From Mycolicibacterium pulveris (GTDB taxonomy: Bacteria; Actinomycetota; Actinomycetes; Mycobacteriales; Mycobacteriaceae): a stretch of 64,000 nt of DNA. Every line of letters starts with the position of its first letter. The stretch's first letter is position 1. The stretch is taken from contig NZ_AP022599.1 in the NCBI RefSeq assembly GCF_010725725.1, positions 248,001 through 312,000 of the forward strand. The letters run 5' to 3'. The notes under the pieces were generated by a model. That model had not been told where the DNA came from. It worked only from the letters and a program-made list of their open reading frames with translations, and ran no database searches. Position numbers and translations under genes: made by a program. Positions 1-13,699 of the stretch are shown here, piece by piece.

Positions 1-702
1 CAGGGCGCGATGACCACGCTGCCGCTACCCGGGCACGCCCCGTCGGGGCTGGGGTTCTGCCCCGACGGCTCGCTGCTGATCGTCTCGACCGAGCGCCGGC
101 AACTGCTGCGCTACGACGGTGACGTCGTGACGACCGTCGCCGATCTGTCCGCGACCGCACCGGCGGATCTGGGCGACATGGTGATCGACGCCGCCGGCCG
201 CGCCTACGTCGGAGCCCAGGCGTTCGAAGGTGGCGTGATCGTGCGGATCGACCCGGACGGGTCCTCGGCCGTCGTCGCGGAGGATCTCGCGTTCCCCAAC
301 GGGATGGTGATCACACCGGACGGCACGCTGATCGTCGCCGAGTCGATCGGCCGACGGCTGACCGCGTTCACCCTCGCCCGCGACGGCGCCCTGACCGACC
401 GGCGGGTGTTCGCCGACGCCCTGGACGGACCGCCCGACGGGATCTGCCTGGACGCCGAAGGAGGCGTCTGGGTGGCGATGACCCTGGCCCACCAGTTCGA
501 GCGAATCACCGAGGGCGGCACGGTGACCGACCGCATCGACATCGGCGACCGGGCGGCGATCGCCTGCACGCTGGGCGGGCCCGAACGCCGCACCCTGTTC
601 CTCGTGTCCGCCGCCGACGCCTATCCGAAGCGGTTGGTCGGCACGAAGTTGTCCCGCGTCGATACGACGACCGTCGAGATTCCAGGAGCCGGCCTGCCAT
701 GA
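1..702 (+). CDS. SMP-30/gluconolactonase-family protein, 5' truncated by window edge
   Basis: The protein is a beta-propeller of the SMP-30/gluconolactonase/LRE family, whose members hydrolyse lactones or related esters using a bound divalent metal. The frame is open to base 1. An ATG at 10 exists, but the protein from there is only 230 residues against about 270-290 for the family, and the usual N-terminal blade (GEGPRW-type segment) is missing, so the true start is probably upstream of the window. Visible blades include PSGLGFCPDGSLLIVS near the start and FPNGMVITPDG and DGPPDGICLDAEGGVW later, which carry the family's conserved Asn and Asp metal ligands. It overlaps the next gene by 4 bases (ATGA), so the two are co-translated. 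The substrate is unknown. Confidence 0.85.
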   Translation, partial: QGAMTTLPLPGHAPSGLGFCPDGSLLIVSTERRQLLRYDGDVVTTVADLSATAPADLGDMVIDAAGRAYVGAQAFEGGVIVRIDPDGSSAVVAEDLAFPNGMVITPDGTLIVAESIGRRLTAFTLARDGALTDRRVFADALDGPPDGICLDAEGGVWVAMTLAHQFERITEGGTVTDRIDIGDRAAIACTLGGPERRTLFLVSAADAYPKRLVGTKLSRVDTTTVEIPGAGLP

Positions 703-3795: not shown

Positions 3796-3802
3796 CGATT
3801 TA

Positions 3803-3832
3803 GCGTGACACTTGAACGAAAATTTGTAAAGC
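3803..3832. promoter_or_regulatory. Regulon site A: bipartite TetR-type operator and promoter
   Basis: The left arm is GCGTGACACT (3803-3812) and the right arm TTTGTAAAGC (3823-3832), with arm starts 20 bp apart. The same arrangement recurs at 7705, 8926 and 10681. On the plus strand the site also reads as a promoter (GTGACA, 16 bp, TAAAGC) whose expected transcription start is at or next to the ATG of the TetR gene at 3840, so that mRNA may be leaderless. It separates the divergent P450 and TetR genes. That one of the two TetR proteins of the module binds it is inference. Confidence 0.75.
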
Positions 3833-3839
3833 TAAGGCG

Positions 3840-4388
3840 ATGCCGGACACCTGCGCCGAACCTGACATCCCGACCCGAGAGCGACTGCTGGTCGCCACGG
3901 CCGAGGTCTTGGGCCGCCACGGCATGACCAAGCTCAGTCTGTCCGAGGTGGCCCAGCAGGCCGGCGTGTCACGGCCCACGCTGTATCGATGGTTCGCCTC
4001 CAAGCGGGAGCTGCTCGACGCGTTCGTGGTGTGGGAGCGCCAGTTCTACGAACGTGCGGTGGCCGATGCGACGTCCGACCTCCCGAAGGCCGAGCGGCTC
4101 GACGCCGCGTTGCGGGTGATCGTGGACTACCAGCACTCCTATCCGGGCCTGCGGATGATCGACGTCGAGCCGGAGCGCGTCATCAAGCGGTTGTCTCGGG
4201 TGATCCCGCTGATGCGACACCGGCTCGAGCGGCTGGCCCCCGGACCCGATCCCGGGCTGGCCGTGGCGACCGCCGTCCGGGTCGCGGTGTCGCACTATCT
4301 GGTCCGCAGCGACGACGACGCCGACTTTCTCGACCAGCTTCGGCACGCGGCGCGGGTCAGGCATCACGCGCCGGAGGTGAACCGGTGA
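3840..4388 (+). CDS. TetR-family regulator, copy 1 of a sister pair
   Basis: A 182-residue TetR/AcrR-type repressor. The N-terminal helix-turn-helix is in the segment LSLSEVAQQAGVSRPTLYRW (about residues 40-60), and the C-terminal ligand domain contains YQHSYPGLRMIDVEPE. It is closely related throughout to the TetR at 10112, which also has 182 residues, so the two are paralogues. It is divergent from the P450 and shares site A with it, which suggests autoregulation. The ATG lies 7 bases after the putative -10 element, with no room for a ribosome site, as expected for a leaderless mycobacterial mRNA. Its stop overlaps the start of the kinase-like gene behind it (GTGA), so both are made from one message. 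Confidence 0.9.
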   Translation: MPDTCAEPDIPTRERLLVATAEVLGRHGMTKLSLSEVAQQAGVSRPTLYRWFASKRELLDAFVVWERQFYERAVADATSDLPKAERLDAALRVIVDYQHSYPGLRMIDVEPERVIKRLSRVIPLMRHRLERLAPGPDPGLAVATAVRVAVSHYLVRSDDDADFLDQLRHAARVRHHAPEVNR

Positions 4389-5431
4389 GCATCCCGGCCG
4401 GCGTCGACGAGCTGACGCCCGAATGGTTCACCAAGGTTCTGAGCGCTCCAATCGACAAGGTCGAGGTGATCGACGCCCACTCCGGCACGACCGGCCGCGC
4501 CCGCGTCGCGCTGCGCTCCCCCGCCGATGTGCCCGAGACGGTCTTCGTCAAGCTGCAGCCGTTCGTCGAGGAACAGCGCAAGTTTCTGCGCCAGATCGGC
4601 CTCGGCGTTGCCGAGGCCCGGCTCTACGCCACGGTCGGCAACGAGTTGCCGGTGCGGGCCCCGCGCGTGTGGCACGCCGATCACGACAGCGCGGACGGTT
4701 CTTTCGTGATGGTGCTCGAGGATCTGGAGGCGTCCGGATGCCACTTCCCCAGCCCCTCCGACGACGGCATCCTGTCGGTGGCGGAGTCGCTGGTGGCGGA
4801 ACTCGCCGTCCTGCACGCGACGTACGCGGGTCAGGATCTGGGGTGGTTACGTACGCCATCGGGTATGCGCAGGAAGCCCGAGGATACCGAAATAGCTGCG
4901 CGCCGTGCGCAATTCATCGTGTCGGCGGTCGAGCAGTTCGCCGACGAGATGCCCGCGGCGTTCCGCAGGCTCGGCGACCTGTACGCCGAGCGGTCGCTGG
5001 AGGTCGTCGCGCTGTTCAACGAAGGCGAGCGCACGCTGATCCACGGCGACACCCACAGCGGCAACCTGTTCGTCGACCGCGGCCGCTGCGGCTTCTTCGA
5101 CTGGGCCGTCGCCGGCCGCGGCCCCGGCATGCGGGATGTCGCGTACTTCCTGTGCAATTCGCTGCCGATCGACATGCGTCGCGCCGAGGAAGCGGCGTTG
5201 CTGGCGCGATACCGGGGCGCCCTGGCCGACGAGGGCACGACGCTCGACGAGCACACCGCCCATGAGCAGTACCGGTTGTTCTCGGTGTACTCCTGGATCG
5301 CTGCCGCGTCGACGGCGGCGATGGGCTCGCGGTGGCAACCGATCGACGTATCACGCGCCGCGATGGTGAGCACGACGCAGGCGATCGAAGATCTCGACGC
5401 GGTTGGCCTGCTCGAAGAACGGCTGGGGTGA
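4385..5431 (+). CDS. APH-fold phosphotransferase 1
   Basis: A 348-residue member of the aminoglycoside phosphotransferase/choline-kinase fold, which moves the ATP gamma-phosphate to a hydroxyl group of a small molecule. The catalytic loop LIHGDTHSGN is at about residue 218-227 and the metal-binding Asp of FFDWAV at about 238. An N-terminal lobe with RARVALR and VFVKLQPF supplies the ATP-binding Lys. The GTG start at 4385 overlaps the TetR stop by 4 bases. A catabolic role is more likely than drug resistance, because the operon encodes a P450, a CoA-transferase and an aldehyde dehydrogenase and two more kinases of the same fold lie within 6 kb. The substrate is unknown. It ends 7 bases from the stop of a convergent gene. 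Confidence 0.88.
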   Translation: MSIPAGVDELTPEWFTKVLSAPIDKVEVIDAHSGTTGRARVALRSPADVPETVFVKLQPFVEEQRKFLRQIGLGVAEARLYATVGNELPVRAPRVWHADHDSADGSFVMVLEDLEASGCHFPSPSDDGILSVAESLVAELAVLHATYAGQDLGWLRTPSGMRRKPEDTEIAARRAQFIVSAVEQFADEMPAAFRRLGDLYAERSLEVVALFNEGERTLIHGDTHSGNLFVDRGRCGFFDWAVAGRGPGMRDVAYFLCNSLPIDMRRAEEAALLARYRGALADEGTTLDEHTAHEQYRLFSVYSWIAAASTAAMGSRWQPIDVSRAAMVSTTQAIEDLDAVGLLEERLG

Positions 5432-5438
5432 CCGACGT

Positions 5439-6512
5439 CTAACCTGGCGAGCGGACCTGGTTGACGCGATCGTCGCGCGGCATGACGGGTCCGTCGTCAA
5501 GCGATTCCTCGATGCCGAGGTCGGAAAGACCCAGCTTCGTCAACAGGGGAATGCCGCTGGCGTTCAACAGGAACCGCGGGTCATCGGAGTGGCCCGCGTC
5601 AAAGAGCATGGACCCGATCAAACAGATGACCGCCATCTTGTAGGCGTTCAGCGCCCGGTACCACGGCCGGTTCTGCGCGGGGATCCCGCCGGCGGCCTCA
5701 TACTGCGACAGGAACTCGTCGAACCCGGGCGCCGCCGGGTGGCTGGTGATGCCCACCGGCTGCATCCACATCAGTTCCAGCCAGCCGATGTCGGTGAGCG
5801 GATCGCCGACCGTCGTCATCTCCCAGTCGAACACCGCGCTGACATCGGCCTCGACGAAGGCGAAGTTACCCGGTTTGGCGTCGCCGTGCACAAGTGTGAT
5901 CGTCTGGGACTGCGCGGGTTTGGTGCGCACCAGCTCCCGAACCAGACGCTCGAGCGCCGGCAGCGGTCCCCGTTGGACACGGCGCATCTCCGAAGCCCAG
6001 TGCGTCAGTTCCCGATCGAGATGGTCGCGACCGTCGCCGAGAAACTCCAGTCCTGCCACCCGCACATCGACGGTATGGATCGCCGCGAGTTGGTCGGCCA
6101 TGCTCCGGCACATCTGCCGGATGTGTTCGTCGGGCGCCTGCGGCGCCTGCATCTCGTACACCTGCCCGCCGACGCGTTCCATGATCAGGAACGGACGCCC
6201 GAGCACATCGCCGGTGTTCTCCAGCCACAGCGCTCTGGGCGCGCGGATCGCGGTGCCGTCCAGCGCGCGCAGAATGTCGAATTGGCGTTTGAGGTCGTAG
6301 GGTTCGAGCAACGCGGGCGGCCGTGGACGCATCCGCAACACGACGTCGCGTTGTTGGTCGGCGCCGTCTCGCGAGAGCGCCACGGTGAACACCATCATCT
6401 CCGCGGAGTGGCCGAACTCGACCCGGTCAAGACCGTCGATGCGGACATCGTCGGCGTCGGGCAGCCGTTGGTGAAGCCACGCGGTCAACCGGCCGGCGAC
6501 GTCGCCGCTCAT
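5439..6512 (-). CDS. APH-fold phosphotransferase 2
   Basis: A 357-residue APH-family kinase of the type often called acyl-CoA-dehydrogenase-associated phosphotransferase in mycobacteria. The catalytic loop LVHGDAKPGN lies near residue 205-214 and the metal-ligand Asp in VFDWEMTTVGDPLTDIGWL near 226, the classic signature of this subfamily. N-terminal LIMERVGGQVYE is the hinge segment. The start is the ATG at 6512, which overlaps the upstream stop by 4 bases (ATGA), so it is translated together with the lipocalin-like gene. It is only distantly like kinases 1 and 3, so it is not a recent duplicate. In related proteins the substrate is thought to be a hydroxylated acyl or alcohol intermediate, but none is established here. 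Confidence 0.88.
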   Translation of the reverse strand: MSGDVAGRLTAWLHQRLPDADDVRIDGLDRVEFGHSAEMMVFTVALSRDGADQQRDVVLRMRPRPPALLEPYDLKRQFDILRALDGTAIRAPRALWLENTGDVLGRPFLIMERVGGQVYEMQAPQAPDEHIRQMCRSMADQLAAIHTVDVRVAGLEFLGDGRDHLDRELTHWASEMRRVQRGPLPALERLVRELVRTKPAQSQTITLVHGDAKPGNFAFVEADVSAVFDWEMTTVGDPLTDIGWLELMWMQPVGITSHPAAPGFDEFLSQYEAAGGIPAQNRPWYRALNAYKMAVICLIGSMLFDAGHSDDPRFLLNASGIPLLTKLGLSDLGIEESLDDGPVMPRDDRVNQVRSPG

Positions 6513-7669
6513 GTGTATGACACCTTGTGATCGGACTCTTCGGTCAGCCCCAGCTCCGGCCACACCCCGCCGATCAGGCTCTCCATGATCCCGTACCCGA
6601 CAGCGTCGCCCTCGCGGACGCGGATCGGGGTGTCCCTGAACTGGCCCAGCCTCGGCAGGTTCTCGTCGTTCCAGCAGTCGGCGATGTGTTCGCCGTCGAC
6701 GTGCAACGCGCCCTTCCAGGACCCGTGCTTGTGGCCGTCCCAGGCCCCGTAACCGGCGGTCTTCAGGAAGAATCCGGACTCGCCGAGCGCCTCGAACACG
6801 ATCACCCGTTCCTCGCCCGACTCCATCGTCAGCACGAGCTCACCGCCTTCGACGAAGCGGGTGCGGGTGTCGTAGTCGACGCGGGGTTGGACGCGGCGCA
6901 CCGGCGCTTGGCTGCCGTCGGCGTCGTTGACATAGGCCGAGCTGTACCCCCACGCGCCCTCGACGACGAATATGGCCGTCTCGTAATAGGTGTCGTCCGG
7001 ACGGCGGAAGAAGGCCGGGGACCATTTCATCCCGCCGCGGGTGCCGGCCGGTGGCTTCGGCGACGGGATCAGATCGGACAGCGGCTCGCCGATCGCCTGC
7101 CGCACTCCCCAGGAGTGGTCGCGGAACCCGAACCATTCGTCGGGGCGGACCTCGTGGGTCTGGCCGTCGACCGTCACCGTCCCGGACGCCCAGCCCCCCT
7201 GGTGGTAGCGGACGACGTCGACGTCGATCCGTCCGGTCCGGCGGTTGCGGACCAGGTTGCGCTCCTCGAAGAACGGCGGGGTCACCCCGGAGAGCACGAT
7301 GTCGTACGAGATCGGTTGCACGTCGTTGGGTTCGAGGACGAAGCGGATCTGCTCGAGCGGTTCGATGATCTCCATGCGCACCGGGCCGACGCCGAGATGC
7401 TCCGGCGCAGAGGACAACTCGCGGCTGCCGCGGACCGTCCACTGCTCCCGGCCCCGCGACACGCCGCCGAAACCGTCGATGATGCCCCGGTTCTGGTACT
7501 TGCCGAGGCCGAAGTCCACTTGTAGCGACCCGTCGGTGCGCGCGATGGAGGCCCAGATCTTCTCGGTCCAGGCCATGTCCGTCTGGGACAGCGTCGCGAA
7601 CGTATCGACGATCTGGTGGTTCAACCCTTCGTCCGCTCCGAGCAGTGGCCCGATGTCATTGATCGCCAT
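6509..7669 (-). CDS. CrtC/AttH lipocalin-like protein of unknown function
   Basis: A 386-residue soluble protein without signal peptide or membrane helix. The composition, with repeated beta-strands such as EWFGFRDHSWGVRQ in the middle and GSWKGALHVDGEHIADCWND near the end, suggests the double-lipocalin fold of hydroxyneurosporene hydratase (CrtC) and AttH relatives. Actinobacterial homologues are annotated only as DUF domains. CrtC-type proteins act on terpenoid double bonds, so a terpenoid-related substrate is possible but is inference. The ATG at 7669 is used because it is the first start in the family-like region; a GGAGG lies 13 bases upstream, rather far. Regulon site B lies 36-65 bases upstream. 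The gene overlaps kinase 2 by ATGA. Confidence 0.7.
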   Translation of the reverse strand: MAINDIGPLLGADEGLNHQIVDTFATLSQTDMAWTEKIWASIARTDGSLQVDFGLGKYQNRGIIDGFGGVSRGREQWTVRGSRELSSAPEHLGVGPVRMEIIEPLEQIRFVLEPNDVQPISYDIVLSGVTPPFFEERNLVRNRRTGRIDVDVVRYHQGGWASGTVTVDGQTHEVRPDEWFGFRDHSWGVRQAIGEPLSDLIPSPKPPAGTRGGMKWSPAFFRRPDDTYYETAIFVVEGAWGYSSAYVNDADGSQAPVRRVQPRVDYDTRTRFVEGGELVLTMESGEERVIVFEALGESGFFLKTAGYGAWDGHKHGSWKGALHVDGEHIADCWNDENLPRLGQFRDTPIRVREGDAVGYGIMESLIGGVWPELGLTEESDHKVSYT

Positions 7670-7704
7670 GAACCCGTCCGAACCTCCTTCGACGCTGGGC
7701 GTCA

Positions 7705-7734
7705 GCGTGACACTAGTAGCGAAATTTGTAAAGG
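7705..7734. promoter_or_regulatory. Regulon site B: bipartite TetR-type operator
   Basis: GCGTGACACT (7705-7714) and TTTGTAAAGG (7725-7734) repeat site A with the same 20-bp arm spacing. The controlled genes (lipocalin-like and kinase 2) are on the minus strand, so the site is turned around relative to the genes at sites A and D. This argues that the shared element is a protein-binding site and not only a promoter. Confidence 0.75.
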
Positions 7735-7737
7735 ACG

Positions 7738-8907
7738 TCAGCCGCGCCGCTGCCGAAGTTCGGCGAGCACGTCCGCGGTGTGCTCGCCGAGCCTCGGCGC
7801 AACGGACCGCGGCGCCCACGGGGTGCCGGAGAAGTCGGCGGGCGAGGCGACCATCGGGACCGTCGAGTCGCCTTCAGGTACATAGACAATGCCGCCCGCG
7901 GCGTGGAACTGATCATCGGCCACCACGTCCTCGACCGAATTGATCGGCGCCCAGAACAACTCGGGCTCGGCGGCAAAGACGTCGGCCCATTCGTCGAGGG
8001 TCCGGGTGGCGAAGATCTCGTCGAGTTCGGCGATGAGCTCGGCGGAGTGCGAGGCGCGCGACCAGGCCGTGGCGAACCGCGGATCGGTCAACCACTCGGG
8101 GCGGCCGACCGCCCGGCACAGCGGCGGCCAGTGCCGGTTCGCCTCCAGGCCGACGATCCAGAATCGGCGCCCGTCGCCGGCGGCGTAGTTGTTCATGCAC
8201 GGGTTGCCCATCGTTTCGCGTTGCCCGATCGCGATGGCGTGCCCGCTCAGCAGAAATGTGTTGAGGTCGAAGCTGACCGTGTACGCGCCCTGCCGGTACA
8301 GGGAGGTGCTCACCAGTTGACCCTCACCGGTGCGGGCCCGCGCCACCAACGCCGCGCATACCGCCGCGGCCAACGTCATCCCCGCCGAGTGGTCGCCCAT
8401 CCCGCCGCGTTGAAAAGGCGGGGTCTGGCCGGGGCGGGTCAGCAGGTGTGCCAGCCCCGCGCGGGCCCAGAACGCGGCGACGTCGTAGGCCGCGCGGTCG
8501 GCGTCGGGACCCGTCTCGCCGTAGCCGGTGATCAGCCCGTACACCAGCCGCCGGTTGCTCGTGGCCACCGCCGCGAAGTCCAGGCCCATCCGGCGCAGCG
8601 CGCCTGGACGGACGTTGGTGATGAAAACGTCGGCATCGCAGAGCAACTCGAGCGCGGTGGTGCGGCCCTGCTCGGTGGTCACGTCGAGCACGACGCTGCG
8701 CTTGCCGCGGTTGTCCATCTCGAACGGCGGGTTCGCCGCATCGTCGTCGATGCCCAGCATCCGCCCGAACGCGCGCGCCGGATCGCCGGTCGGGGGTTCG
8801 ATCTTGACGACGTCGGCGCCCCAGTCGGCCAGGATCCCGCCCGCCGCGGGCCCGGCCACCCAGACCCCCAGTTCGACGACCCGGATACCCTGCAACGGTC
8901 CGGCCAT
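7738..8907 (-). CDS. CaiB/BaiF family CoA-transferase
   Basis: A 389-residue class III CoA-transferase, which moves CoA between carboxylic acids through an enzyme-aspartyl intermediate. The N-terminus GIRVVELGVWVAGPAAGG, then GADVVKIEPPTGDPAR and DNRGKRSVVLD, are family hallmarks, and the segment GYGETGPDADRAAYD holds the conserved region near the catalytic Asp. Length is normal. The ATG at 8907 is preferred over earlier TTG/ATG codons because GGAAAGG lies 6 bases upstream of it. It is divergent from kinase 3 and shares the symmetrical site C with it. It presumably activates a carboxylic acid made by the P450 and aldehyde dehydrogenase of the module. Confidence 0.92.
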   Translation of the reverse strand: MAGPLQGIRVVELGVWVAGPAAGGILADWGADVVKIEPPTGDPARAFGRMLGIDDDAANPPFEMDNRGKRSVVLDVTTEQGRTTALELLCDADVFITNVRPGALRRMGLDFAAVATSNRRLVYGLITGYGETGPDADRAAYDVAAFWARAGLAHLLTRPGQTPPFQRGGMGDHSAGMTLAAAVCAALVARARTGEGQLVSTSLYRQGAYTVSFDLNTFLLSGHAIAIGQRETMGNPCMNNYAAGDGRRFWIVGLEANRHWPPLCRAVGRPEWLTDPRFATAWSRASHSAELIAELDEIFATRTLDEWADVFAAEPELFWAPINSVEDVVADDQFHAAGGIVYVPEGDSTVPMVASPADFSGTPWAPRSVAPRLGEHTADVLAELRQRRG

Positions 8908-8925
8908 GCCCATCCTTTCCAACTG

Positions 8926-8955
8926 AGTTTACAAACTCGGGGAAATTTGTAAACT
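8926..8955. promoter_or_regulatory. Regulon site C: perfect 10-bp-arm palindrome with face-to-face promoters
   Basis: AGTTTACAAA (8926-8935) and TTTGTAAACT (8946-8955) are exact inverted copies separated by 10 bp. The right arm aligns with those of sites A, B and D. Each strand reads TTTACA, 16 bp, TAAACT, so the same 30 bp can serve as promoter for the divergent CaiB and kinase 3 genes. The plus-strand start codon (GTG at 8962) lies 6 bases after the -10 element, consistent with a leaderless mRNA. Confidence 0.8.
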
Positions 8956-8961
8956 GGCGAG

Positions 8962-10065
8962 GTGAGTCGGGTTGCGCCGATCGTCGGCTTGGCGTCGCAT
9001 CTGGGGCGCGGTGTTCAACGTATCGCCACCGACGCCGTCGTCGGCCGGATCCGGTCGATTCCGCGCACGGTCGGCGATCTCGACGCGGCGGCGCTGACCC
9101 GAATCATGGGCCGCAGGGTCACCTCGGTGTCGGTGCTCGGCGGTGACGCGGGCACGTCGTCAAGGGCGCGGCTCGCGCTGACCGGAGACAACGTCCCGGC
9201 TTCGGTGTTCGTCAAGATGTCGGCCGAAACGGCCGCGACCCGCCTGATGGGTGAGCTGGGCAGGCTCGCCGACACCGAAACCCGCTTCTACCGTGAGCTT
9301 TCCACGCGGCTACGCGGTGTTCCCCGCTCGTACGGTTCCGCGTTCGACACGTTGACCGGGCGCTTCGTGCTCGTGCTCGAGGACCTGCCCGCCGACGAGT
9401 GCCAGTTCCCTGACACGCTGCATCCGTTGCCCCGCGATCAGGCCGGGCTCATCGTCGAACTGCTGGCCCAGCTGCACGCAACGTTCTGGGGGCGGGTTCC
9501 GGCGTGGGCGTACACCGCCTCGGGCGACAGCGCCGCGCTGCTCACCGGCCCGCTGCTCAAGACGTCGTCGCGCCGGATCGCCGAGCGCACCGACATTCCC
9601 GTCGACCGCGGCCGGTTCATCGACGCCAACTACCGCGCGGTGGCCCGGCTGATCGACCGGCCGCCGCACACCGTCATGCACGGCGACGCCCATCCCGGCA
9701 ACGTCTACTTCCGCAACGGCCAGGCGGGGCTGCTGGACTGGCAGGCCGTGCGGCGTGGCCACCCCGGGCGCGAACTCGCCTACACCCTGGTCACCAGCAT
9801 GACCCCGGCCGATCGCCGCGCCGAGCAACGCGACCTGCTCGACGTCTACCGGCAGGCGCTGGCCGCTCACGGCGGACCGCAGCTCGATCGCGACGAGTTG
9901 TGGCACCGCTACCGGCAGGGCGCCCTCTACGCCTACGTCGCGGCGCTGATCACCGCGGGCATGGGCGGTATGCAGGCCGAAGACATCGCGTTGGAGGGCT
10001 TGCGCCGCGGGGTGGCCGCGCTGGAAGATCTCGACACCGTCGCGCTTTTGGCGCAGTCGCTGTGA
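8962..10065 (+). CDS. APH-fold phosphotransferase 3
   Basis: A 367-residue APH-fold kinase resembling kinase 1 (4385-5431) more than kinase 2. The catalytic loop VMHGDAHPGN is near residue 237-246 and the metal-ligand Asp in LLDWQA near 258. The N-lobe has SSRARLALTG and SVFVKMSAE, and the C-terminus has the helix ALEDLDTVALL also seen at the end of kinase 1 as AIEDLDAVGLL, so kinases 1 and 3 are sister genes. It starts at a GTG directly behind regulon site C and probably has a leaderless mRNA. The second TetR gene follows. Substrate unknown; drug resistance is possible but the context favours catabolism. Confidence 0.88.
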   Translation: MSRVAPIVGLASHLGRGVQRIATDAVVGRIRSIPRTVGDLDAAALTRIMGRRVTSVSVLGGDAGTSSRARLALTGDNVPASVFVKMSAETAATRLMGELGRLADTETRFYRELSTRLRGVPRSYGSAFDTLTGRFVLVLEDLPADECQFPDTLHPLPRDQAGLIVELLAQLHATFWGRVPAWAYTASGDSAALLTGPLLKTSSRRIAERTDIPVDRGRFIDANYRAVARLIDRPPHTVMHGDAHPGNVYFRNGQAGLLDWQAVRRGHPGRELAYTLVTSMTPADRRAEQRDLLDVYRQALAAHGGPQLDRDELWHRYRQGALYAYVAALITAGMGGMQAEDIALEGLRRGVAALEDLDTVALLAQSL

Positions 10066-10111
10066 CCGAGGCTCTACGATCGACTGACTCGGACGATTGA
10101 GAGCCTTTCAC

Positions 10112-10660
10112 GTGAGAGACCCACTACCCGACGCATCCGGCGAGGACGAGGACACCTCGACGCGGCACCGCATACTGGCCGCCACCGCAGAAGTGCTGGG
10201 CCGCAGTGGTCAGACGAAGCTGAGCCTCTCGGAGGTGGCGTTGCAGGCCGGCGTGTCGCGGCCGACGCTGTACCGCTGGTTCGCCTCCAAGTCCGAACTG
10301 CTCGACGCGTTCGGGGCCTACGAGCGCGACCTGTTCGACAACGGCGTCAGCAAGGCCACGGCCGGGCTGCGCGGCACCGAAAGACTCGACGCCGCGCTGC
10401 AGTTCATCGTCGACTACCAGCGCTCCTACTCCGGGGTGCGGTTGGTCGACATCGAACCCGAAGTGGTCATTCCGCAGCTGTCGAAGATCATTCCGTTGAT
10501 GCGGGCGCGGCTGGAGCGGCTGCTGAGCGGTCCCAACAAAGCCGTCAAGGCGGCCACCGCGATTCGGGTCGCGGTCTCGCACTACATCGTCCGCAGCGAC
10601 GACGATGATCAGTTCCTTGCGCAGCTGCGGCACGCCGTCGGGATCAAGCCACAGGGCTGA
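10112..10660 (+). CDS. TetR-family regulator, copy 2 of the sister pair
   Basis: A TetR repressor with helix-turn-helix LSLSEVALQAGVSRPTLYRW and ligand domain containing YQRSYSGVRLVDIEPE. It matches the TetR at 3840 almost segment for segment. A TTG at 10097 is also open, but the GTG at 10112 gives 182 residues, the same as the sister, and has a GAGAG stretch 8 bases upstream. It follows kinase 3 in the same orientation, just as copy 1 precedes kinase 1, so a kinase-TetR pair seems to have been duplicated. The last bases run into the leader of the aldehyde dehydrogenase gene, whose operator (site D) lies 20 bases downstream. Confidence 0.88.
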   Translation: MRDPLPDASGEDEDTSTRHRILAATAEVLGRSGQTKLSLSEVALQAGVSRPTLYRWFASKSELLDAFGAYERDLFDNGVSKATAGLRGTERLDAALQFIVDYQRSYSGVRLVDIEPEVVIPQLSKIIPLMRARLERLLSGPNKAVKAATAIRVAVSHYIVRSDDDDQFLAQLRHAVGIKPQG

Positions 10661-10680
10661 GCGCCGGGACTTCGGGGAAA

Positions 10681-10710
10681 AGCTGACACTTCCAAAAGAA
10701 TCTGTAAAGC
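10681..10710. promoter_or_regulatory. Regulon site D: operator/promoter of the aldehyde dehydrogenase
   Basis: AGCTGACACT (10681-10690) and TCTGTAAAGC (10701-10710) keep the 20-bp spacing of the other three sites. As a promoter it reads CTGACA, 16 bp, TAAAGC. The ATG of the dehydrogenase is 8 bases after the -10, with no ribosome site between, so the mRNA is probably leaderless and repressor binding would cover the core promoter. Confidence 0.75.
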
Positions 10711-10718
10711 TGTCTGGC

Positions 10719-12203
10719 ATGACCGAGGTGCAGACTGAGACCGGCGTGCTGGCCGGCGAAGAGCGGATGTTGATCGCTGGCGAACTGCAGTTCACCAGCA
10801 GCGGCGCGAAATTCGACGTCGTACACCCGGCCAGCGAGGAGGTCGCGGGCCAGGCCACCGACGGGACCGTCGAGGACATGGCACGCGCTGTCGGCGCGGC
10901 ACGGCGAGCGTTCGACGAGAGCGACTGGTCACGCGATCTCGAGTTCCGCTACCACTGTCTGACCCAGCTGCACGAGGCGCTCGAGCGCAACAAGGAGCGG
11001 CTTCGGCGGATCCTCATCACCGAGGTCGGGTGTCCGGTCTCGGTGACCGCCAGCCAGATCGAAAGCCCGATCGAGGAGGTCAAGCACTGGACCGAGCACG
11101 GCAAGAACTTCACCTACCTCGTCGACAACGGTGTGCACGAGACTCCGCTCGGTCCCGCGCGGCGCAAGATCCACTACGAACCCGTCGGCGTGGTGGGCGC
11201 GATCACGCCATGGAACGTGCCGCTCTATCTGAACATCGCCGAGACCGTGCCCGCGCTGATGGCCGGTAACACCGTCGTCCTCAAGCCCGCCCAGCTGACC
11301 CCGTGGTCGGGCAGCGAGTACGGCCGCATCGTCGCCGAGGAGACCGACATCCCGGCCGGGGTGTTCAACGTGGTGGTGTCCAACGCCAACGAGGTCGGGG
11401 CGGCGTTGTCGGCCGATCCACGCGTCGACATGATCACGTTCACCGGATCGACGGCCACCGGACGGGCGATCCTGGCCGCCGGTGCGCCGACGGTGAAAAA
11501 GACGCTGCTCGAGTTGGGTGGCAAGTCCGCCCACATCGTGCTCGACGACGCCGATTTCAACGCCGCGCTGCCGTTGGCGGCGATGATGGCGTGCGTGATG
11601 TCCGGCCAGAGCTGCATCCTGCCGAGCCGGATCCTGTTGCCGCGCAGCCGCTACGACGAGGGTATCCAGATCCTCAAGACGACGATGGAGGGCTTCCCGG
11701 TCGGCGACCCGTGGACGCCCGGCAACATGCAGGGCCCGCAGATCAGCGAGACTCAGCGCGAGAAGGTGCTGGGCTTGATCAAGAGCGGCATCGACTCGGG
11801 TGCGCGGTTGGTCACCGGCGGTGGTATCCCGGAGAATTTGCCGACCGGCTACTACACGCAGCCGACCTTGCTGGCCGACGTCGACCCCAATTCCCAGGTG
11901 GCCCAGGAGGAAATCTTCGGCCCGGTCCTGACCGTCACCCCGTACGACACCGACGACGAGGCGATCGCCATCGCGAACAACTCGATCTACGGGCTGTCCG
12001 GTGAGGTCAGTAGTGCCGACGTGGATCGCGCATTCGGCGTGGCCTGCCGCATGCGCACGGGCAACGTCACGATCAACGGCAAGAGCCACTTCGGCATCAA
12101 CAGCCCGTTCGGTGGCACCAAGCAGAGCGGCCTGGGCTACCGCAACGGCGAAGAGGGATACAAGGAGTACCTCGAGGCCAAGACCATCGGCATGCCCGAC
12201 TGA
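10719..12203 (+). CDS. NAD(P)-dependent aldehyde dehydrogenase
   Basis: A complete 494-residue aldehyde dehydrogenase that oxidises an aldehyde to its acid. The general-base Glu265 is in LLELGGKS and the nucleophile Cys299 in SGQSCILPS, 34 residues apart as usual. The cofactor-binding FTGSTATG is at about 241-248, and EEIFGPVL and the C-terminal FGGTKQSGLGYRNG are family blocks. The ATG at 10719 is chosen over upstream starts that overlap the TetR gene and operator. It stands under regulon site D. A natural role is to oxidise an aldehyde formed from the P450 product, delivering an acid to the CaiB CoA-transferase. It overlaps the SnoaL-like gene by one base. A related enzyme lies at 59624-61099. 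Confidence 0.94.
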   Translation: MTEVQTETGVLAGEERMLIAGELQFTSSGAKFDVVHPASEEVAGQATDGTVEDMARAVGAARRAFDESDWSRDLEFRYHCLTQLHEALERNKERLRRILITEVGCPVSVTASQIESPIEEVKHWTEHGKNFTYLVDNGVHETPLGPARRKIHYEPVGVVGAITPWNVPLYLNIAETVPALMAGNTVVLKPAQLTPWSGSEYGRIVAEETDIPAGVFNVVVSNANEVGAALSADPRVDMITFTGSTATGRAILAAGAPTVKKTLLELGGKSAHIVLDDADFNAALPLAAMMACVMSGQSCILPSRILLPRSRYDEGIQILKTTMEGFPVGDPWTPGNMQGPQISETQREKVLGLIKSGIDSGARLVTGGGIPENLPTGYYTQPTLLADVDPNSQVAQEEIFGPVLTVTPYDTDDEAIAIANNSIYGLSGEVSSADVDRAFGVACRMRTGNVTINGKSHFGINSPFGGTKQSGLGYRNGEEGYKEYLEAKTIGMPD

Positions 12204-12638: not shown

Positions 12639-13241
12639 TCAGTCGCCCGCCGGCACGAGGCTCGAGACGATCAGTTGCAGATAGGGTCGGTACAGGTCGG
12701 ACCCGTCGAGATGGCTACCGAGGGTGACGCCGTCGTTGACCGCGAGGATCAATTGGGCCAACGTGTCGGCCGGCATCGTCAGTGTTGCGCCCAATCGTGC
12801 GACGTTCTTGCCGATGAATTCGCCGAGCGACCGGATGGTCTCGTGCCGTTGAGAATCGAGTCGCTCGCGCGCCTGCGGATTGCGTAACAGATAGAGCGTG
12901 AGTTCGTAGTTGAGCGCGGCCCGATTCGGGTCGTTGCCGACTTCGCGCCATCGCTCGGCGAGTTCGTCGACGCTGAGCTCGTCCAGGCGCCCGAAGGACT
13001 GGATGGTCTCGTTGAAGCCGTCGAGGAAGCGCTGCCGCTGGCGATCGACGACGGCCAGGAACAACTCTTCCTTGGCGCCGAAGTGCGAATAGATCGCCCC
13101 GCGGGTGTAGCCGGCCACTTCCGCGATGTCCTCCAGGGCCGCTCCGGTCAGACCCTTGCGCGCGAACACTTCCTCGGCCGCGTCGAGCAGCAGGTTACGG
13201 GTGTGTTCGAGACGTCGCTCTCTGGTCCACCGCTCCGGCAT
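12639..13241 (-). CDS. TetR-family regulator of the Rieske operon (probable)
   Basis: A 200-residue TetR protein with helix-turn-helix in LEDIAEVAGYTRGAIYSHF (about residues 34-52), followed by GAKEELFLAV, the AcrR-like hallmark. The C-terminal half is a divergent ligand-binding domain. The ATG at 13241 begins MPERWTRERR, a usual length of lead-in before the DNA-binding domain; the open frame extends 14 codons further without similarity. It is unlike the sister TetRs at 3840 and 10112. Its most likely target is the pair of palindromes at 13754-13786 in front of the Rieske oxygenase gene. An adjacent small minus-strand gene lies between the regulator and these sites. Confidence 0.88.
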   Translation of the reverse strand: MPERWTRERRLEHTRNLLLDAAEEVFARKGLTGAALEDIAEVAGYTRGAIYSHFGAKEELFLAVVDRQRQRFLDGFNETIQSFGRLDELSVDELAERWREVGNDPNRAALNYELTLYLLRNPQARERLDSQRHETIRSLGEFIGKNVARLGATLTMPADTLAQLILAVNDGVTLGSHLDGSDLYRPYLQLIVSSLVPAGD

Positions 13242-13279
13242 CCGCCGATCCTCCCACAACGCCGCGCCACCACCGACCG

Positions 13280-13699
13280 TCACGGCGCCACCGTGAGCGC
13301 CGAGGTGTGCACGAATTCCCGTAGCGCCATCATCTTTGATGATGTACCCAGCAGGAACATCTCGAGATCGGCGGTGTTTGGTGGTAGACCGGCGGCAAGC
13401 AACGCCCGAGACTTGAAAGTGCGCGCCGCCGCGCTGACGTGATGGCGCACGCAGTCGGACCCGTCACGAGCGGTGTCTTGCGCAGCGACGGCCCGCACGA
13501 CCAGCGCATCCACCCCCTCGGGTCTGCCGACCAGTTCGCGCGCCGTCACGCCGAGAATCGCCGAGGAGCGAGCGTCGTCGAGCTTCGATACCCACACCGT
13601 GACCGTCCAACCGGCCATCACACGATCGCACAGCCAGCCACCCGCGATGCTGATCAGATCCGCGGAGCTCGCCGCGCGCAGGTCGAGTGCGCACTTCAT
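13280..13699 (-). CDS. Hypothetical protein, 139 residues
   Basis: I do not recognise this protein. The open frame runs to 13780, but an ATG at 13699 has AGGGAGGAA 6-8 bases upstream, so that start is used. The predicted product is soluble, of mixed composition, with no signal peptide or clear metal motif; it contains a Trp-rich stretch (GGWLCDRVMAGWTVTVWV) and a basic middle. It is transcribed leftward, divergent from the Rieske oxygenase operon, and so would share the twin-palindrome control region. It points toward the TetR gene and may be in one transcript with it (38-base gap). Coding status is probable rather than proven. Confidence 0.55.
   Translation of the reverse strand: MKCALDLRAASSADLISIAGGWLCDRVMAGWTVTVWVSKLDDARSSAILGVTARELVGRPEGVDALVVRAVAAQDTARDGSDCVRHHVSAAARTFKSRALLAAGLPPNTADLEMFLLGTSSKMMALREFVHTSALTVAP

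Follow-up and report, generated by a model that had tools for sequence, protein, structure and literature searches.

A conserved palindromic operator and two putative TetR repressors in a catabolic gene cluster of Mycolicibacterium pulveris

Introduction

In mycobacterial sterol catabolism, the TetR repressors KstR and KstR2 act at several operators placed before catabolic operons (PMC6593523). The same source describes a predicted mycobacterial regulon of Rv0767c-type TetR proteins and their motif X, which was found through upstream motifs and covers genes for cytochromes P450, aldehyde dehydrogenases and short-chain dehydrogenases. Less significant motifs have been listed for Rv0767c and also for Rv3167c (PMC4482099), a TetR protein encoded beside the Rv3168-Rv3169 operon that binds a palindrome in its own intergenic region in electrophoretic mobility shift assays (PMC5340868). 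In the Rv3160c-Rv3161c system, palindromes have been proposed to let a TetR-type repressor block the -10 region (PMC7810876). As far as the cited portions of these papers go, each of these systems resembles, in the respect just named for it, a gene cluster of Mycolicibacterium pulveris that is analysed here. The cluster lies around the left end of a stretch of 64,000 nucleotides (hereafter the window; it covers C1:248001-312000 in a genome of one contig and 5,484,749 bases), and its genes share a palindromic operator site.

From comparison of sequences, we propose that this cluster is very probably a TetR repressor regulon, with the related proteins TetR1 and TetR2 as repressors and with an operator that overlaps a two-way promoter.

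Operator sites and their candidate repressors

A preliminary description of the window had postulated four copies of a bipartite operator, and all four are present. With up to three mismatches, GTGACACT-N10-TTTGTAAA matches three times in 64 kb (0.01 expected from shuffles), at sites A and B without mismatch and at site D with two, the deviations of site D lying in both arms (CTGACACT and TCTGTAAA). Site C is an exact copy of the symmetrical form TTTACAAA-N10-TTTGTAAA and its sole match in the window at up to two mismatches (0.00 expected). Together with its AGC and GCT extensions (3802-3833), site A makes up a fuller inverted repeat, AGCGTGACA...TGTAAAGCT. The 8-bp arms start 18 bp apart (8 + 10), and the 20 bp first given fits only the 10-bp arms that follow from the coordinates used at that time.

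In the 5.48-Mb genome, TKACAMW-N10-WNTGTMA was found at nine exact places, seven of them inside 22 kb (C1:236590 to 258707). These seven are sites A-D plus three sites left of the window: C1:236590, before a DUF427 gene; C1:240524, between an acyl-coenzyme A (CoA) dehydrogenase gene and an open reading frame (ORF) with no Pfam match; and C1:247856-247879, just outside the window, which adjoins an SMP-30-like gene. Among the genes at these left-hand sites there is also one that we take to be a NIPSNAP gene. The compact regulon that had been suggested is thus larger than first described, with at least seven sites, and it is supported by the comparisons below. If one mismatch is allowed, matches number 16 in the forward and 16 in the reverse direction, while the reversed control gives 5 and 6; such matches outside the cluster are therefore mostly background. 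Further exact palindromes lie at C1:2941726-2941749 and 4099252-4099275, and one-mismatch palindromes at C1:86581-86604 and, three of them, within 3527767-3530223; these could be remote targets or chance matches.

Two TetR-family genes lie in the cluster, and the helix-turn-helix domain TetR_N exceeds its curated cut-off in both products (Table 1). The two proteins had been called nearly identical, which overstates their similarity: they share 65% identity over 175 columns, though their recognition helices are the same letter for letter (SRPTLYRWFASK). All the named NCBIfam TetR subfamilies listed for TetR1 (18) and TetR2 (15) score below cut-off, and a sequence search of solved structures returned only distant TetR relatives, the best being Mce3R (E 3.5e-8 and 1.2e-6). 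The palindrome stands beside tetR1 both in this genome and in relatives.

Conservation and co-occurrence with TetR

A scan of named genomes with TetR1, in which loci were chosen by the TetR protein alone, gave 75 loci (1,337,179 bases). The pattern is present in 70 of them, 206 times in all, and the reversed control in none; conservation at these loci speaks for the proposed regulon. Tandem pairs of sites, 60-93 bp apart, are seen at L074:8759/8852, L080:9870/9940, L089:9869/9940, L092:8190/8250, L097:9841/9934 and L098:4336/4413. After removal of duplicates and of sites less than 80 bases from a locus end, 212 unique sites remained, 174 asymmetric and 38 symmetric. Among the asymmetric ones, the information content is 0.09-0.44 bits at spacer positions 8-14 and near 2 bits in the arms, where some positions were fixed by the pattern. 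This variable spacer, the shuffle expectation and the empty reversed control argue against chance or a recent duplication of upstream DNA as the source of the repeated sites. Duplication has occurred in the module, as its two tetR genes and three kinase genes are paralogues; as an account of the sites, it and chance together retain a negligible probability.

In a set of 148 genomes from the genus, 113 carry GTGACANT-N10-TTTGTAA, the strict form of the motif, with the reversed control at zero in each. A TetR of this type (profile A1, E<=1e-30) is present in 123 of the 148, including all 113 motif genomes, and the strict motif occurs in none of the 25 genus genomes judged TetR-less, five of which were identified by elimination. 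The same holds in a family set of 121 genomes from 31 genera, seven of them already counted in the genus set: the motif is found in nine genomes and the TetR in ten, namely the same nine plus one distant match, and the motif occurs in none of the 111 TetR-less genomes of this set. Beyond the genus, the family set has motif and TetR together only in genus g20 (two genomes). One genus genome, G049, holds five matches to TetR proteins of this group; a second contig (C5; loci L120 and L121) accounts for three of the five and also carries two sites.

A paralogous TetR with a variant operator

A third paralogue, TetR3, is encoded at C1:3401937-3402458, near an Rv3169-family gene and an ORF that looks APH-like by eye; over 165 residues it shares 46% identity with TetR1. 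When one mismatch was allowed, palindromes resembling TTTACAT-N10-ATGTCACACT, with the same spacing, were found at the eight best TetR3 orthologue loci, including that of this genome. The sites of the TetR3 module here (L112:5858 and 6475, that is C1:3401858 and 3402475) mark it as a sister module of the studied cluster. Operators of the form found with TetR1 (type I) and of the form found at the TetR3 loci (type II) were counted within 300 bp of those TetR genes that had enough flank, 160 distinct genes in all. Type II sites accompany seven of the eight TetR3-type genes and type I sites none of them; the other 152 TetR genes have type I in 74 cases, type II in none and neither in 78, many of these last being TetR2-type genes that lie behind kinase 3. 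The recognition helix reads YRWF in the TetR1 type and YRYF or YRHF in the TetR3 type. Because two TetR1-type genes with YRYF keep type I sites, no single specificity residue is claimed. The related TetR proteins of the two types form a naturally occurring pair, with operators that differ in sequence but not in spacing, and should be useful for studying how recognition helices change specificity.

The proposal that TetR1 and TetR2 bind the sites gains support from the conservation of the motif at TetR loci, from the co-occurrence, from the position of remote sites ahead of what is probably a single target gene and from the differing site at TetR3, and we regard them as the likely binders. Some other regulator could bind instead, TetR1 and TetR2 being merely linked to the sites; a candidate would be the TetR-like ORF recognised by eye at 12639-13283 of the window, or a protein encoded elsewhere, and linkage by itself would yield co-occurrence. 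Against such a regulator stand the type I sites that start 33-99 bp from the matched TetR1-type gene (15 genes, among the matches listed) and the variant site that the TetR3 module carries elsewhere in the genome, which leave it very improbable. The ORF at 12639-13283 is of a different sequence type and lies past the aldehyde dehydrogenase gene and SnoaL genes.

The operator as a putative two-way promoter

According to the relevant part of PMC3898074, most -10 elements of mycobacteria read TANNNT, and transcripts without a leader are common there, accounting for 26% of genes with a primary start. At site A, the TetR1 ATG (3840) and the P450 GTG (3795) each stand 6 nt past a predicted -10 element, AAAGCT and CACGCT, respectively (Table 1), and the tetR1 mRNA is predicted to be leaderless. 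At site C, TAAACT (8950-8955) is followed after 6 nt by the GTG of kinase 3 (8962), and at site D, AAAGCT (10706-10711) is followed after 7 nt by the aldehyde dehydrogenase ATG (10719). The resemblance of the operator arms to -10 promoter elements, with starts 6-7 nt past the arm, suggests leaderless mRNAs, and several leaderless gene starts can be predicted to the base.

The same spacing recurs in relatives. At asymmetric sites, ATG or GTG stands exactly 6 nt past the GCT of the arm in 82 of 174 cases on the right and in 82 of 174 on the left, as against 0-2 of 174 at right-side offsets 10-14. At symmetric sites, the right side has ATG or GTG at offset 5 in 30 of 38 cases, which is equivalent to 6 because TAAACT ends one base earlier. 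Gene families at these sites were assigned by crude peptide patterns, some rows of which are wrong; with this limit, the first in-frame start falls at offset 6 in 22 of 33 P450 genes, 18 of 28 aldehyde dehydrogenase genes (7 of 28 at offset 7), 3 of 3 acyl-CoA dehydrogenase genes and 22 of 60 tetR1 genes (32 of 60 at offset 0), and for kinase 3 at offset 5 in 11 and offset 2 in 7 of 21.

The AGCG at the left of the site is retained in 49 of 55 TetR1/P450 sites, 46 of 51 SMP-30 sites and 27 of 44 unclassified sites, and in 0 of 27 aldehyde dehydrogenase sites, which have no divergent gene. It is read as part of the left promoter and not of the operator core. The orientation of site B relative to its genes had been offered as an argument for a protein-binding site over a promoter. 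That argument fails because the arms on either side seem to carry promoter elements, so that a site can be both.

It may be asked whether the motif is simply a conserved sigma-factor promoter to which no TetR binds, given that its arms look like -35 and -10 elements and that start codons lie 6-7 nt beyond. Yet T is conserved at spacer positions outside the hexamers (positions 6 and 17, in 99% of asymmetric sites, where the pattern had permitted A or T), the motif is seen in the genus and family sets solely in genomes with this TetR, and a variant site with equal spacing stands beside the paralogue TetR3. A promoter without TetR binding is accordingly judged unlikely.

Proposed mechanism of repression

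In the proposed TetR regulon, dimers of TetR1 and TetR2 would bind the palindrome TKACANT-N10-TTTGTMA at the seven clustered sites and would shut off a catabolic gene set comprising P450s, dehydrogenases, the acyl-CoA dehydrogenase, the CaiB-type CoA-transferase, the APH/EcKL kinases and the Rv3169-family protein, until a compound of the pathway, the presumed inducer, released the repressors. The operator would double as promoter: at divergent sites each arm would overlap the -10 element of its own side and the -35 element of the opposite one, with 17 bp between the two elements of a promoter. Several genes starting 6-7 nt past the arm would give leaderless mRNAs. Binding of a TetR would thereby cover the two promoters together, and tetR1 itself would be repressed as well. 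For this widespread mycobacterial gene set for degradation, an operator, the likely repressors and at least seven target sites can now be named, and with them a screen for inducers could point to the substrate.

Several observations weigh against this regulon or limit its support. TetR proteins can also act as activators. In five of the 75 loci the pattern is missing; two of these (L087 and L102) carry a site that differs from the strict motif at one position. The strict motif is also missing from 10 of the 123 genus genomes that bear the TetR (G026, G042, G054, G055, G056, G063, G070, G071, G078 and G084). Among the eight of these ten that were examined (all but G070 and G078), one-mismatch sites were found in four (G026, G054, G055 and G071), and no convincing site in the other four. 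Whether a genome lacks the TetR was judged from its best first-look candidates, 22-27 in number (22 in the genus set), and four of the 25 TetR-less genus genomes are less than 90% complete. Moreover, the counts of genomes and sites are not independent, since sites and TetR proteins share ancestry. With regard to the promoter, AAAGCT and CACGCT fit TANNNT only partly, their first base deviating. A second right-side peak of start codons lies at offset 0 (49 of 174 asymmetric sites; often an ATG in frame with another at 6). To the left of symmetric sites, start codons do not peak: none of the 38 sites has one at offset 5 or 6, and eight have one at offset 7. SMP-30 starts vary (offset 8 in 14 and offset 5 in 9 of 42), and acyl-CoA dehydrogenase sites, with a gene on the left, have AGCG in one of eight and ACCG in seven of eight cases.

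A bolder proposal goes further: a duplicated TetR lineage of the same genome would have moved to a neighbouring operator code at equal spacing (TGACATN...ATGTAA as against TGACANT...TTTGTAA), giving two insulated copies of the switch, and a palindrome of about 32 bp would serve as operator and two-way leaderless promoter, so that one repressor event silenced both genes. We hold this combined proposal to be an even call.

Genes of the cluster and remote sites

The features of the cluster are collected in Table 1. The gene before kinase 2 had been described as lipocalin-like; its product belongs to the Rv3169 family. The SMP-30 label of the first gene of the window is our presumption. At the SMP-30 site (L024:19840-19900, just left of the window), TTGACA stands upstream and is kept in relatives; in this genome, the operator itself contains a GTG in the reading frame of the gene, which looks as though a second promoter served a start at that point.

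Table 1. Coordinates of genes, operator sites and predicted promoter elements in the window
Feature	Position	Strand	Remarks
SMP-30-like gene	10..702	+	true start possibly left of window
Cytochrome P450	2554..3795	-	Pfam PF00067
Predicted -10 CACGCT for P450	3802..3807	-	17-bp spacer to -35 TTTACA (3825-3830)
Operator site A	3805..3830	+	GTGACACT-N10-TTTGTAAA, between P450 and TetR1
Predicted -10 AAAGCT for TetR1	3828..3833	+	17-bp spacer to -35 GTGACA (3805-3810)
TetR1, TetR-family regulator, 182 aa, proposed repressor	3840..4388	+	Pfam TetR_N 54.4 bits (cut-off 24)
Kinase 1, APH/EcKL-type	4385..5431	+	
Kinase 2, APH-type	5439..6512	-	
Rv3169-family protein	6509..7669	-	NCBIfam NF053593, 358.8 bits (cut-off 150)
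Operator site B	7707..7732	+	upstream of minus-strand Rv3169-family/kinase 2 genes
CaiB-type CoA-transferase (family III)	7738..8907	-	PF02515
Operator site C	8928..8953	.	symmetrical TTTACAAA-N10-TTTGTAAA, between CaiB-type gene and kinase 3
Kinase 3, EcKL/APH-type	8962..10065	+	
TetR2, 187 aa, TTG start uncertain	10097..10660	+	TetR_N 45.7 bits (cut-off 24)
Operator site D	10683..10708	+	CTGACACT-N10-TCTGTAAA, upstream of aldehyde dehydrogenase
Aldehyde dehydrogenase	10719..12203	+	Rv0768-family relative below that cut-off (601 vs 775 bits)

Ten sites remote from the main cluster were taken from the listed matches of the genus scan. Six of the ten (among the matches listed) directly precede ORFs that start with MDFSHVELSEED or near it (in G020, G021, G124, G096 and G141, and one of those in G049). 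The acyl-CoA dehydrogenase at the C1:240524 site starts VDFSHVQLSD, read from its predicted GTG, and because the N-termini are alike, the remote ORFs are taken as the same gene. It therefore looks as if the motif precedes one target gene even when that gene lies elsewhere. As judged by eye, one of the other four sites is near a P450-like ORF, and another has a TetR paralogue on one side and a P450-like ORF on the other; the last two have no clear target gene.

Comparison with known systems

Among the papers listed in literature searches on mycobacterial TetR regulation, including one for TTTGTAAAG in which no title pointed to regulation, no description of this operator was found, and the motif X regulon is the nearest published claim found. 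The motif described here might be motif X of the Rv0767c-type TetR and so be known already, for motif X is palindromic and, in Mycobacterium sp. VKM Ac-1817D, precedes genes for P450s, dehydrogenases and TetR proteins that phytosterol induces, according to the part of PMC6593523 that deals with it. The Rv0768-family member of this genome that exceeds the cut-off is, however, another gene (C1:3049039, 949 bits), and its Rv0768-type locus, which has a divergent TetR-like ORF (L159), holds no match to TKACA-N14-TGTMA with up to one mismatch. In addition, Rv0767c binding regions are enriched in GAC/GTC and depleted in TAA/TTA, the latter being depleted for most factors in that study, as far as the section concerned of PMC10312376 goes. 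On these grounds, identity of the two motifs is judged unlikely. The intergenic region between the TetR and aldehyde dehydrogenase genes of the Rv0768-type locus (L159:12870-13010) contains palindromes resembling GACACGTGTCC, which could serve as an operator for the TetR encoded there.

The systems of motif X, Rv3167c and Rv3160c are of the same kind as the TetR1/TetR2 regulon proposed here, and none is known to be this one. KstR differs in its protein: its cut-off is 280 bits, whereas TetR1 reaches 24.1 and TetR2 27.2 bits. As far as it is set out in the part of PMC7810876 cited, the Rv3160c-Rv3161c system differs in consisting of one operon with two nested inverted repeats and no shared operator family. 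Leaderless transcripts are documented for mycobacteria in the cited part of PMC3898074, whereas here they are predicted only from spacing. The two-way arrangement itself has a parallel in the bidirectional promoters of E. coli, which are likewise made of near-symmetrical DNA, for example at acrA/acrR with its TetR-family repressor (PMC12825309). In the portion of that work considered, the distance between divergent starts is commonly 18, 10 or 23 bp, as against the 45 bp predicted at site A, where each predicted -10 element overlaps the opposite -35 element.

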